40,781 nt of DNA from assembly GCA_947449495.1 (NCBI GenBank), contig CANFSB010000012.1:1-40781 (forward strand), written 5' to 3'. Shown here piece by piece: positions 17,679 to 22,235 of this stretch. Source of the stretch: Pseudomonadota bacterium (GTDB taxonomy: Bacteria > Pseudomonadota > Gammaproteobacteria > Steroidobacterales > Steroidobacteraceae). The notes under the pieces were generated by a model that saw nothing but the letters and a program-made list of their open reading frames with translations, was not told the origin of the DNA and did no database searches. Position numbers and translations under genes: made by a program. Position 1 is the stretch's first letter. Each line of letters begins with the position of its first letter.

Positions 17679-18635
17679 ATGTCAGAGCTTTCAGAAAACC
17701 GCGGATTTTTTGCGCGCCTCAAGCAGCGTCTTGGCAGCGGCGCGGCCAAGGTCAGCGGTGGCCTGCGCAGCCTGTTTCGCGGCCGACGCATCGATGCCGA
17801 GCTGCTCGATGACCTTGAGACGCGGCTCATCACCTCGGATGTGGGTGCCGAAGTCACGCAAGGCCTGCTCGAAGACCTGCGCCAGCGCTTGTCGCGCAAC
17901 GAGCTGGGCAATGTCGATGCGCTGATGGATGCACTGCGTGATGACCTGGCGGCCATTCTGGCGCCCTGCGCCAAACCGTTGCACATCGACACGGCGCACA
18001 AGCCCTATGTAGTGATGGTTGTCGGCGTTAACGGCTCGGGTAAGACCACTTCCATCGGCAAGCTCGCCACGCGCCTTGCTGCCGAGGGCCGCTCTGTCAT
18101 GTTGGCCGCCGGTGACACCTTTCGTGCCGCTGCGGCAGAGCAACTGACCATCTGGGCCACCCGCACCGGCGCCCAAATCCACCAGCAGCAGGCCGGCGCA
18201 GATCCAGGTGCCGTAGTGTTCGATGCCTTGCAACAAGCGCGCGCGCGCGGCCTCGATGTGGTGCTGGCCGATACTGCCGGCCGCTTGCACAGTCAGTCGC
18301 ACTTGATGGAAGAGCTCAAGAAGGTCAAACGCGTCATCCAACGGGTCGACCCCACTGCACCACACGAAGTGCTGCTGGTGCTCGATGCCAACCAAGGCCA
18401 GAACGCATTGGCCCAAGCAGTGGCTTTTCATGAGGCCGTGGGCGTGACCGGGCTGGTACTCACCAAGCTCGACGGCACTGCACGCGGCGGTATCGCCGTC
18501 GCCATTGCACGACGCCTTGGTCTGCCGATCCGCTTCATCGGCATCGGCGAGCAAGCCGGTGATTTCGGTCCGTTTGATGCCACCGCCTTTGCCAATGCCT
18601 TGGTGGGCGACAACGGCACAGAAGGCGCCGCGTGA
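17679..18635 (+). CDS. ftsY: signal recognition particle receptor FtsY
   Basis: A 318-residue SRP GTPase that docks ribosome-nascent chain complexes at the inner membrane. NG domain motifs in order: GVNGSGKTT (G1), DTFRAAAAEQL, VLADTAGR (G3), TKLDGTARGG (G4). The long acidic A domain of E. coli FtsY is missing; a short N-terminal helix FFARLKQRLGSG probably provides membrane contact, as in many short FtsY forms. No good Shine-Dalgarno is seen before the ATG. It overlaps ftsE as GTGA. Confidence 0.96.
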   Translation: MSELSENRGFFARLKQRLGSGAAKVSGGLRSLFRGRRIDAELLDDLETRLITSDVGAEVTQGLLEDLRQRLSRNELGNVDALMDALRDDLAAILAPCAKPLHIDTAHKPYVVMVVGVNGSGKTTSIGKLATRLAAEGRSVMLAAGDTFRAAAAEQLTIWATRTGAQIHQQQAGADPGAVVFDALQQARARGLDVVLADTAGRLHSQSHLMEELKKVKRVIQRVDPTAPHEVLLVLDANQGQNALAQAVAFHEAVGVTGLVLTKLDGTARGGIAVAIARRLGLPIRFIGIGEQAGDFGPFDATAFANALVGDNGTEGAA

Positions 18636-19285
18636 TCCGCTTCGACCGCGTCTACAAGCGTTATCCCAACGGTCGCGAGGCGCTCTCGTCCGTCAGTTTC
18701 GATATTGGCGCAGGCGAGATGGTGTTTCTGACCGGCCGCTCCGGCGCCGGCAAAAGCAGTGTATTGCGCCTCATCACTTTGCTGGAGCGCCCGACCCGCG
18801 GCCTGGTCAATGTGCTGGGTCACGACACCCAACGCGTTAGCGTCTCGAAAGTGCCCTCGTTTCGCCGGCAAGTGGGCATGGTGTTCCAGGATCACCGGCT
18901 GCTGGCCGAACGCAGCGTGTTCGACAACGTTGCCCTGCCACTGGTGGTGGCCCATACACCGCTGCGCGAGACCGACAAACGCGTACGCGCGGCACTGGAT
19001 CAAGTCGGCCTACTCGATCGCATTCAGGCACTACCGGGCGAGTTATCTGTGGGCGAGCAACAACGCATCGGCATTGCACGAGCCATCGCGCCGCGACCAG
19101 CGCTGATCGTCGCCGACGAACCCACTGGCAACCTTGATCCGCAGCTCTCGCGCGAGATCCTCGGCCTGTTCTGCCGCCTGCGTGATGCGGGCTCTACGCT
19201 GGTCATCGCCAGCCATGACATGGCACTGGTCAACGAATCCGGTGCGCGGCAGATCCACCTCGACGGCGGCCGGGTGATCTCATGA
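18632..19285 (+). CDS. ftsE: cell division ATP-binding protein FtsE
   Basis: A 217-residue ABC ATPase that with FtsX links the divisome to peptidoglycan hydrolase activation. Walker A is GRSGAGKS, the Q-loop is in VFQDHRLL, Walker B is LIVADEPTGNLD and the H-loop is ASHD. The ABC signature reads LSVGEQQR, with Val where most FtsE have Gly; the same change occurs in active eukaryotic ABC ATPases. GTG start overlapping ftsY, and an ATGA overlap into ftsX. Confidence 0.96.
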   Translation: MIRFDRVYKRYPNGREALSSVSFDIGAGEMVFLTGRSGAGKSSVLRLITLLERPTRGLVNVLGHDTQRVSVSKVPSFRRQVGMVFQDHRLLAERSVFDNVALPLVVAHTPLRETDKRVRAALDQVGLLDRIQALPGELSVGEQQRIGIARAIAPRPALIVADEPTGNLDPQLSREILGLFCRLRDAGSTLVIASHDMALVNESGARQIHLDGGRVIS

Positions 19286-20196
19286 TCGGCTGGCTGTCGC
19301 GTCATCTGCAGGCCTTGGTGTTCGCACTAGGCAGGCTCGCGCGGGCGCCCGTGGCCACCTTATTCACAGCGGTCGTCATCGCCATCGCACTGGCGCTGCC
19401 AGCCGGCTTTCTACTGCTGACGCACAGCGTGCGCGATGTGGCCGGTAACGCCACCACCGTCGATTTGACCGTCTATTTCAAACGCGAGGTGCCGCTGGAA
19501 TCGGTGCAGCAGCTGGCCGCACACCTGCGCCAGCGCAACGGCATTGAATCCGTCGCGGTCATCACCGCAGACGATGCTTTGGCGCTGATGCGCAAGGACA
19601 GCAGCCTCGCCGAAGCGCTCGGCGCACTGCCCGACAATCCGCTGCCCCATGCGTTGTCGATCCACCCAGCCGCTGATGCCAGCAGCAGCACTTCGCTCGG
19701 CGCGCTGCGGCAATACCTGACAGCCTGGCCCGAGGTGGAGCTGGTACAGCTCGATAGCGACTGGGTGCGCCGTCTGGATGCCATCCTGCTGCTGATGCAA
19801 CGCATCACGCTGGGCATCGGCACGTTGCTGGGTTTCGGCGTGTTGGCCGTAATCGGCAACACCATCCGGCTCGAGATCAACGGCCGTCGCCAAGAGATCG
19901 AAATCACCCAGCTGGTGGGCGGCAGCGCCGCGTTTGTGCGCCGACCCTTCCTCTACACCGGCGCACTGTATGGGCTGCTGGGCTCACTGCTGGCGGCCGG
20001 CATCGTGCATACCGCCGTGGCGCTGGTGGCAGGGCCAGTCGACCAGTTGGCCCGCTCCTATGGCAGCCAATTCGCGCTGCAGCCGCTCGGTGGCCAGGGC
20101 CTGGGCCTGATGCTGGCTGTGGGAGCCCTGCTGGGGCTGGCCGGCGCCTGGCTAGCGGCAGCACGTCACATTTCCAGGCTGCAACCTAGGGCCTGA
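19282..20196 (+). CDS. ftsX: cell division permease-like protein FtsX
   Basis: A 304-residue inner-membrane protein of the FtsEX complex. Hydrophobic segments lie near residues 25-50, 175-200, 230-255 and 270-295, with a large periplasmic loop after the first, as in FtsX. That loop recruits EnvC-like activators of amidases in characterised systems. The conserved segment RLEINGRRQEIEITQLVGGSAAFVRRPFLYTGALYG is diagnostic. Start ATG overlaps the ftsE stop. A short gap with a CIRCE element separates it from rpoH. Confidence 0.95.
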   Translation: MIGWLSRHLQALVFALGRLARAPVATLFTAVVIAIALALPAGFLLLTHSVRDVAGNATTVDLTVYFKREVPLESVQQLAAHLRQRNGIESVAVITADDALALMRKDSSLAEALGALPDNPLPHALSIHPAADASSSTSLGALRQYLTAWPEVELVQLDSDWVRRLDAILLLMQRITLGIGTLLGFGVLAVIGNTIRLEINGRRQEIEITQLVGGSAAFVRRPFLYTGALYGLLGSLLAAGIVHTAVALVAGPVDQLARSYGSQFALQPLGGQGLGLMLAVGALLGLAGAWLAAARHISRLQPRA

Positions 20197-20207
20197 CTCG
20201 GGGACTG

Positions 20208-20234
20208 TTAGCACTCGGCACAGAGGAGTGCTAA
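20208..20234. promoter_or_regulatory. CIRCE element (HrcA operator) upstream of rpoH
   Basis: TTAGCACTC, nine bases, GAGTGCTAA: an exact match to the CIRCE consensus. HrcA repressor binds this inverted repeat at chaperone operons and releases it on heat shock. It lies 37 bp before the preferred rpoH start and 11 nt after the ftsX stop, in the only gap of the ftsYEX-rpoH cluster. The hrcA gene is not in the window. Confidence 0.93.
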
Positions 20235-20271
20235 ACTGCAGGGCATGGCATCTTCTTCAGGAGACACCACC

Positions 20272-21159
<888 letters not shown>

Positions 21160-21177
21160 AATGTACCCCGGCAACTA

Positions 21178-21207
21178 TCGTGGCTTGCCACGAGATGTTG
21201 TTTTTTT
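21178..21207 (+). terminator. rpoH terminator
   Basis: TCGTGG-CTTG-CCACGA, a 6-bp stem with a tetraloop, begins 18 nt after the rpoH stop. GATGTTG and then seven T follow. The T-run is somewhat far from the stem, so read-through is likely. Confidence 0.55.
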
Positions 21208-21483
21208 ACACGGGTGTATTTTTTTAGAAACAGATGTACAGTCGACCTCGGTTGCACCTGGCTGACTTTTTCGAAAGAAATGCCGGAGCGATCGGGTGGA
21301 CACGGCAAGCCTGACCCTATTTGTGCCAGGCCGGGAACGAAATACGCGCGAATAAACGCGTGGGCAGAGCAAATTTGCCGCCGGGCGCAAGCCTGACGAT
21401 TCCCACCGGTGCCTTTTTTGGCCGTCCATATGCAGCGCGCAAGCGACTGCAACCCGACCGATCCGTGTCATACAAGCAACTAC

Positions 21484-21511
21484 AAGACCCGCCTCGTGCG
21501 GGTCTTTTTTT
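21484..21511 (+). terminator. strong intrinsic terminator, plus strand
   Basis: AAGACCCGC, loop CTCGT, GCGGGTCTT, then a continuous run to seven T in total. This is a textbook Rho-independent terminator on plus. On minus, where the PAP2 gene ends 19 bp away, the tail is TTGTAGTTG and weaker. Confidence 0.85.
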
Positions 21512-21530
21512 GCCTGTCGTCAGCCGAGCC

Positions 21531-22235
21531 CTACCAAACCACGGCAAATCGCAGTGTCGGCACCGCACGCCCGCGCGCATCCGGCAGCAGTGTCAGGCCC
21601 ATATCCGCGCCACCTTGCGAGCTGTTGTCGTCGTCACCCAGTGCAAACGGCTTGCGGGTGACAGGCCCCCACTGCCCATAGCCAGCCATAGCAGCCATCG
21701 CGGCAGCAGGCACTGCAACAGACACCGCATCGTTACCGTGACCGACTGCTTGCGAACCTGCCCAAGCAAGCAGCGTGCTGGCGGCAACATCTCGCACATG
21801 GTGACGCTGTTCAGCGATGCGGCTAAAGCCCACCGTGGTAGCCAACGCCACAGCTGGCAAACCCATGCTGTTGCCATAGCGGCTCTGCAAACCCATCGCA
21901 CCACACATCGCCGCAGCGGTGTGACCGGATGGAAAACTGTGCGTACCGCCATCGGGCCTACGCCCCAATGCAGTGTTGTTGAGCAAGGCCTTGAACAAGT
22001 GCGCACTGCCAATGGTCAACGCACAACCACCAGCCACCTGGCGAAAGCCTTCGCTGTCGTGACGTGCAAGCGTTACCCCTGCTGCACCCAACGGCAGCAA
22101 GTACTGCATCGCATCACCATAGATGCCGAAGACTGACTCGTGAGCATCGGGCTTGAACGGGTTGCCATCGGCGTGACAGGGCAGCATGACCAGCGCCAGC
22201 AGCAGCGCTGCTGCCGCGCGCAACGCCACACTCAT
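21531..22235 (-). CDS. exported PAP2-family phosphatase
   Basis: A 234-residue protein of the PAP2/acid phosphatase superfamily. The signal sequence MSVALRAAAALLLALVMLPCHA suggests a periplasmic or membrane-attached product. The three phosphatase motifs are present: KALLNNTALGRRPDG, the PSGHT motif in SFPSGHTAAA, and SRIAEQRHHVRDV with the nucleophilic His. The substrate is probably a lipid or small phosphomonoester but is not shown. The ATG overlaps the upstream stop as ATGA, so it is cotranscribed with the cysteine-cluster gene. Confidence 0.87.
   Translation of the reverse strand: MSVALRAAAALLLALVMLPCHADGNPFKPDAHESVFGIYGDAMQYLLPLGAAGVTLARHDSEGFRQVAGGCALTIGSAHLFKALLNNTALGRRPDGGTHSFPSGHTAAAMCGAMGLQSRYGNSMGLPAVALATTVGFSRIAEQRHHVRDVAASTLLAWAGSQAVGHGNDAVSVAVPAAAMAAMAGYGQWGPVTRKPFALGDDDNSSQGGADMGLTLLPDARGRAVPTLRFAVVW

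Follow-up and report, generated by a model that had tools for sequence, protein, structure and literature searches.

Textbook accounts usually present bacterial heat-shock control as two distinct designs, one built on sigma-32, as in Escherichia coli, and the other on HrcA, as in Bacillus. The E. coli rpoH gene has a sigma-E-dependent promoter, and our profile search, run on E. coli as a control, detected no hrcA there. A survey of beta- and gammaproteobacterial genomes by Permina and Gelfand in 2003 may, reportedly, list sites of the HrcA operator CIRCE at rpoH. For Agrobacterium tumefaciens, a paper is said to announce in its title "differential and independent roles" of RpoH and HrcA, and the wiring between HrcA and rpoH may therefore not extend to the alphaproteobacteria, which lie outside the present sample.

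In the accessible text of Rodionov et al. 2004 (PMC545781), the rpoH gene of Geobacter sulfurreducens is predicted to have an exact CIRCE at position -51. The available part of another paper describes HrcA sites that lie close to or overlap the -35 and -10 elements in Helicobacter pylori, as well as the stimulation of HrcA binding by GroE in several bacteria, including H. pylori (PMC6032397). HrcA control of rpoH is not reported in the portions consulted of PMC3135505, PMC11764788, PMC3989490, PMC6032397, PMC10696704, PMC5745026, PMC8762339 and PMC3557214, most subscription journals being outside this search.

Here we describe a CIRCE located in front of rpoH in a gammaproteobacterium of the family Steroidobacteraceae. 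The analysed stretch of DNA, referred to as the window, comprises 40,781 nucleotides. At positions 20208-20234 (no strand assigned) it carries TTAGCACTC-GGCACAGAG-GAGTGCTAA, an exact copy (0 mismatches) of the consensus TTAGCACTC-N9-GAGTGCTAA that is kept upstream of rpoH in relatives. This is the only CIRCE match in the window at up to 3 mismatches, and none was found at the same threshold in 100 dinucleotide shuffles of the window, which confirms the perfect operator reported in the initial annotation. A chance origin of CIRCE at rpoH is ruled out by these shuffles and by randomised upstream regions (first-order resampling), in which sites with up to 3 mismatches occurred in 0 of 2660 cases in one run and in 1 of 2660 (with 3 mismatches) in another. 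The gene behind the operator had been named as that of sigma-32, and this is borne out by two profiles, TIGR02392 (387.8 bits; cut-off 323.1) and NF005143 (409.5 bits; cut-off 241). We consider it probable (roughly 0.8) that this CIRCE is an HrcA operator that holds rpoH transcription down until GroEL is engaged with unfolded protein, with the loop then closed via groESL.

The operator sits between ftsX and rpoH, following the gene order ftsY-ftsE-ftsX. All of these genes are encoded on the + strand and score over the cut-offs of their profiles: ftsY at 17679-18635 (TIGR00064), ftsE at 18632-19285 (TIGR02673) and ftsX at 19282-20196 (TIGR00439), whose stop codon lies 11 nt 5' of the operator. 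The rpoH gene occupies positions 20272-21159 (+ strand) if translation begins, as is likely, at the TTG codon at 20272, from which the frame is open. The ORF-caller chose an in-frame ATG at 20245. The TTG is the likelier start judging from the predicted N-terminus, which resembles the starts of the relatives' proteins, and a Shine-Dalgarno-like AGGAGA can be read before it in the sequence (20259-20264, + strand). Only 37 nt thus separate the end of the operator from the likely start of rpoH, placing CIRCE just upstream of this heat-shock gene. A strong terminator-like hairpin with a T run was detected downstream of rpoH (21484-21511, + strand).

Considering that the repeat can form a hairpin so shortly after the ftsX stop, it might serve the ftsYEX operon as a terminator or attenuator. 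This we regard as extremely improbable: the repeat has no T run, a terminator scan of 19900-20400 finds no terminator, and it is the letters themselves, beyond mere pairing, that are conserved. A terminator or attenuator was accordingly rejected, and we return to the reading of the repeat as an operator.

The initial annotation had made its reading depend on the presence of hrcA elsewhere in the genome, and one hrcA gene (TIGR00331, 331 bits; cut-off 197.2) was found in the source assembly (2.58 Mb, 159 contigs). In a genome-wide scan the rpoH site was the only CIRCE with at most 1 mismatch; one further site had 2 mismatches and another had 3. The latter is located inside a tolB-like ORF and was taken as a chance match. 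The site with 2 mismatches (TTAGCAGCC-N9-GAGTGCTAA) is found close to the end of contig C66. The 55 letters with which C66 closes are identical to the end of contig C44, which carries groES-groEL, so that the site was assigned to groESL. It stands behind a sigma-32-like CTTGAA...CTAT stretch, and the groESL promoter of this genome looks like one of the sigma-32 type. At the hrcA-grpE-dnaK locus no CIRCE was found at up to 3 mismatches. The original proposal that the target of HrcA is here the sigma-32 gene, in place of the usual groESL and dnaK, consequently stands with respect to the exact operator at rpoH and has to be amended with respect to groESL, which also retains a CIRCE, a weaker one with 2 mismatches; the hrcA-grpE-dnaK locus has none at the threshold applied.

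Comparison with relatives revealed that the repeat is kept upstream of rpoH at the level of genus, family and class, the conservation that had been named in advance as a check of the operator. Within the genus, all 9 genomes carry CIRCE in front of rpoH (8 exact, 1 with one mismatch). Within the family, a CIRCE with at most 1 mismatch is present in 101 of 120 genomes (76 of 82 among good-quality assemblies), and RpoH is encoded directly 3' of CIRCE in 30 of the 30 loci listed from other genomes. In 11 of the 19 family genomes lacking such a site, the assembly contains no rpoH above the cut-off, and in the remaining 8 it does; one of these 8 genes (in G026) is truncated by a contig end, and the other 7 all have a CIRCE with 2 mismatches (L093-L099). 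Altogether, 131 distinct family sites were collected at up to 2 mismatches, of which 102 precede rpoH and 27 precede groES; for the other 2, each less than 150 nt from a contig end, there is no gene call. These counts do not represent target frequencies, because the rpoH sites came from CIRCE searches (95 of 102) and an rpoH search (7), whereas a groEL search supplied every one of the 27 groES sites. The rpoH sites include 52 (of 102) exact copies of CIRCE. The groESL sites of the family (e.g. L002, L035) have a degenerate left arm, which reads TTAGCAGCC in 19 of the 27, TTAGCACCC in 7 and TTAGCAGTC in 1.

To place these data in a wider frame, 140 genomes representing 132 families of the class were searched for hrcA and rpoH. 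A match to hrcA was obtained in 104 of the 140 (over the cut-off in 100), and a match to rpoH in all 140 (over the cut-off in 134). The best CIRCE within about 460 nt was then recorded for 133 rpoH upstream regions from 132 genomes (one region, from G144, being short); the class count excludes the window genome, the family member G015, six genomes without rpoH over the cut-off and the second rpoH of G189. Genomes were scored as hrcA-positive upon any match at E <= 0.001, fragments included. By this measure CIRCE (up to 3 mismatches) is found upstream of rpoH in 91 of 99 hrcA-positive genomes versus 4 of 33 hrcA-negative ones (Fisher p 9e-18, with genomes treated as independent despite their kinship). 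The distribution of mismatches in the hrcA-positive genomes is 0 in 49, 1 in 30, 2 in 7, 3 in 5 and at least 6 in 8, compared with 0 in 1, 1 in 2, 3 in 1 and at least 6 in 29 of the hrcA-negative genomes. Among the hrcA-bearing genomes sampled from the class, CIRCE at rpoH is therefore common and no local oddity.

The exceptions occur in both directions. Eight of the 99 hrcA-positive genomes (G205, G239, G173, G139, G236, G210, G257 and G129) lack CIRCE at rpoH. Conversely, four genomes without a detected hrcA have kept the site, exact in G223 (L278), with 1 mismatch in G132 (L280) and G217 (L230), and with 3 in G176 (L190); this may reflect an hrcA that was missed, its recent loss, or another reader of the site.

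Several individual loci of the class survey are of separate interest. CIRCE-like remnants were noticed upstream of rpoH in G178 (L238) and G163 (L239), where hrcA was not detected, and these are perhaps relics left after the loss of hrcA. On contig C39 of G175 (L513, L250), hrcA (148456-149463) and rpoH (from 152037) share a strand, with about 2.5 kb between them, and no grpE or dnaK was found at this hrcA locus. An extra CIRCE half site, GAGTGCTAA, accompanies the full rpoH CIRCE on its 5' side in G126 (L248) and on its 3' side in G160 (L235). In G144 (L222, L231) there are two rpoH genes over the cut-off, one with a CIRCE containing 1 mismatch and the other with none.

The large set of sites also bears on whether the inverted repeat might function at the RNA level instead of being a DNA operator, forming a hairpin or thermometer in the rpoH transcript that masks the translation start. 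The E. coli rpoH gene does use an mRNA thermosensor, and the repeat described here is able to pair as RNA 37 nt before the likely start codon. Such a role would be expected to leave its trace in compensated arm changes, and the opposite is observed: among the 95 class sites at rpoH, 24 arm pairs are broken and 32 changed to G-U on one side, versus 4 with two-sided changes (3 Watson-Crick, 1 G-U), and among the 102 family sites the corresponding figures are 35 and 18 versus 2. The rpoH leader of the window folds no better than its shuffles (z -0.54), no match above the gathering score was obtained with Rfam in 20000-21600, and the co-occurrence of the site with hrcA across the class genomes is contrary to a function in RNA. 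Moreover, a transcript starting from the TAAACT hexamer discussed below would exclude the repeat. Given the uncompensated changes, the z score and the Rfam result, we set the thermometer aside as very unlikely, and the repeat is treated in the following as a DNA site for HrcA.

Other targets of HrcA were surveyed in the same class sample. CIRCE was found at groESL, at up to 3 mismatches, in 67 of 70 hrcA-positive genomes (chosen from 104 as the 30 with the highest groEL scores plus 40 others in list order) and was exact in 44 of the 70; one of the three misses (G241) is truncated by a contig end. Among the hrcA loci of the best 30 scorers, the source genome included, 20 have a CIRCE, at or just 5' of the hrcA start. 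By these proportions, rpoH ranks with groESL among the main HrcA targets of the class. The idea that rpoH might be the better-conserved target class-wide was rejected, since, when the two sites were paired in 69 genomes, mismatches were fewer at rpoH than at groESL in 13, equally many in 27 and more numerous at rpoH in 29. Taken together, the comparison strongly supports CIRCE at rpoH as a predicted target of HrcA.

A feature absent from the initial annotation is that the operator overlaps promoter-like elements, as judged from their sequence. The consensus of E. coli sigma-E promoters consists of GGAACTT and TCTNA separated by about 16 nt. In most rpoH sites the left arm and the loop of CIRCE form a -10-like stretch, and a sigma-E-like GAAC -35 precedes it at the distance of a promoter. 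The word GAAC occurs 14-16 nt 5' of CIRCE at 85 of 102 rpoH sites in the family and 65 of 95 in the class, compared with 1 of 27 and 1 of 67 groES sites; for the reversed word CAAG, the numbers are 0 of 102 and 0 of 95 at rpoH, and 0 of 27 and 1 of 67 at groES. The third base of the loop, corresponding to the last A of the -10, is A at 84 of 102 (family) and 72 of 95 (class) rpoH sites and at 4 of 27 and 12 of 67 groES sites. A full TCTNA is rarer, being present at 27 of the 102 rpoH sites in the family and 49 of the 95 in the class, and the sigma-E-like -10 is thus often just a partial match. The co-occurrence of GAAC and the loop A, expected if both form one promoter, is pronounced in the class (60 sites with both, 5 with GAAC alone, 12 with A alone, 18 with neither; odds ratio 18, p 1e-7) and in the family (77, 8, 7 and 10, respectively; p 2e-5), shared descent being ignored in both p values.

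A second rpoH-specific pattern lies over the other half of the operator. The sequence TGCTANN[AC]T is present at 95 of the 102 rpoH sites in the family and 78 of the 95 in the class, and at 0 of 27 and 3 of 67 groES sites. In the window, it is represented by the extended -10-like element TGCTAAACT (20229-20237, + strand), composed of the right arm of CIRCE and the next 3 nt, whose role in a promoter is putative. With regard to a complete promoter of the sigma-70 type (TGNTATAAT-like with a -35), TGCTAAACT is present in the window and the -35 is represented by TTAGCA alone; this weak -35-like hexamer (20208-20213, + strand) lies 18 nt from TAAACT, the two together having 8 of 12 consensus letters, and is likewise a candidate element. 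These elements stay below the threshold of a promoter scan, which called no promoter.

The sigma-E-like elements are missing, both -35 and -10, from the rpoH site of the window itself: with the loop GGCACAGAG, no GAAC-N16-19-TCNNA occurs in 19501-20300. Within the genus, the GAAC -35 is present in 5 of 9 genomes and missing in 4. The source genome does encode a sigma factor of the RpoE family (273.6 bits; cut-off 236.15), and a rough pattern search for a sigma-E box at its rpoE locus, intended as a positive control, gave 2 ambiguous matches that were left out of account.

This overlap raises the question of whether the palindrome is read by another repressor, or only marginally by HrcA, its conservation being due mainly to the promoter elements that it covers. 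The promoter-like letters do coincide with the palindrome, and four hrcA-negative genomes retain it. We nevertheless regard this explanation as unlikely. The sibling genome G021, like the window, has no sigma-E-like box, and 77 of 90 upstream bases are identical between the two, while the arm bases are identical at 18 of 18 positions; the exactness of the arms where the sigma-E-like letters are missing argues that they are kept for HrcA. In addition, the rpoH arms share their consensus with the groES arms, and the site is absent, at up to 3 mismatches, from 29 of the 33 hrcA-negative genomes. Recognition by HrcA thus remains our preferred explanation for the conservation of the arms.

The combination of the two signals was also sought in the GTDB collection, which was scanned for exact GAAC-N10-12-CIRCE. 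At least 118 stretches were obtained. Compared with RpoH, GroES and GroEL queries, 85 of the 118 matches listed precede rpoH, 3 precede groES and 30 precede neither, 3 of these 30 having fewer than 150 bases after the site; the matches serve as illustrations and give no measure of frequency. The listed rpoH cases include Deefgea rivuli, Alcanivorax jadensis, Uliginosibacterium aquaticum, Pseudacidovorax intermedius, Dyella flagellata, Dyella ginsengisoli, a Thioalkalivibrio, Fontimonas thermophila and Methyloversatilis thermotolerans, and of the 18 remaining titled records among the matches listed, 12 belong to Firmicutes or Actinobacteria by title.

From these arrangements we infer the binding of HrcA, the repression of rpoH, a feedback through GroEL and the use of the promoters described above. 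An HrcA dimer, kept active by free GroEL, would occupy CIRCE; the dependence of HrcA on GroEL in the source organism is presumed by analogy. The right arm of CIRCE would supply the TGCTAANNT-like extended -10 of an rpoH promoter, and the left arm and loop would supply, in most relatives, the -10 of a promoter of the sigma-E type. Since CIRCE overlaps the predicted rpoH promoter region, bound HrcA would cover either -10 and exclude RNA polymerase. Once unfolded proteins fill GroEL, HrcA would be released and rpoH transcribed; sigma-32 would then drive groESL, preceded by its sigma-32-type-looking promoter and its own CIRCE, and newly made GroEL would restore HrcA, closing the loop. The suggestion of the initial annotation that the HrcA circuit gates the sigma-32 circuit is in this way supported, at the level of sequence, by the exact CIRCE, the presence of hrcA and the conservation of the site at rpoH. 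The sigma-32 of E. coli is regulated chiefly at post-transcriptional levels, and the transcriptional effect of HrcA on rpoH could therefore be modest.

We see even chances for a broader proposal, namely that repression of rpoH by HrcA is old and near-general in the hrcA-bearing Gammaproteobacteria in the broad sense, acts through a promoter-embedded operator, and was the state from which the HrcA-free circuit of E. coli was derived after the loss of hrcA. If this is true, the housekeeping and the envelope-stress (sigma-E) inputs to sigma-32 synthesis would both be vetoed by chaperonin sufficiency. If HrcA commonly controls rpoH, the two textbook designs would form a hierarchy in many proteobacteria, in which production of the master sigma factor is gated by GroEL capacity. 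Through the overlap of sigma-E-like and extended -10 elements with the operator, cytoplasmic and envelope stress would converge on rpoH at a single site of about 45 bp, and the proposal provides a testable history for the origin of the E. coli arrangement.

Compared with the HrcA/CIRCE regulon as it is generally known (groESL and hrcA-grpE-dnaK), the source genome has the same exact operator, an hrcA gene and a CIRCE at groESL, and differs in that the best-matching target is the sigma-32 gene, while its hrcA-grpE-dnaK locus is without CIRCE at up to 3 mismatches. With the sigma-E-dependent rpoH promoter of E. coli, most of the relatives' rpoH sites share the GAAC -35, the last A of the -10 and the spacing; they differ from it in that the -10 is embedded in the putative HrcA operator, and the site of the window itself is without sigma-E-like elements. 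A further described case is that of G. sulfurreducens, in which, according to the available text of PMC545781, an exact CIRCE at rpoH is likewise accompanied by CIRCEs at groESL and the hrcA operon. That text concerns one delta-proteobacterial species and, in the part available, does not mention an overlap with a promoter, whereas in the present class sample most hrcA-bearing genomes have the site, and sigma-E-like and extended -10 elements coincide with it. The occurrence of CIRCE at rpoH as such was thus predicted in 2004 (PMC545781); new in this study are its class-wide prevalence and the promoter-like elements embedded in the operator.
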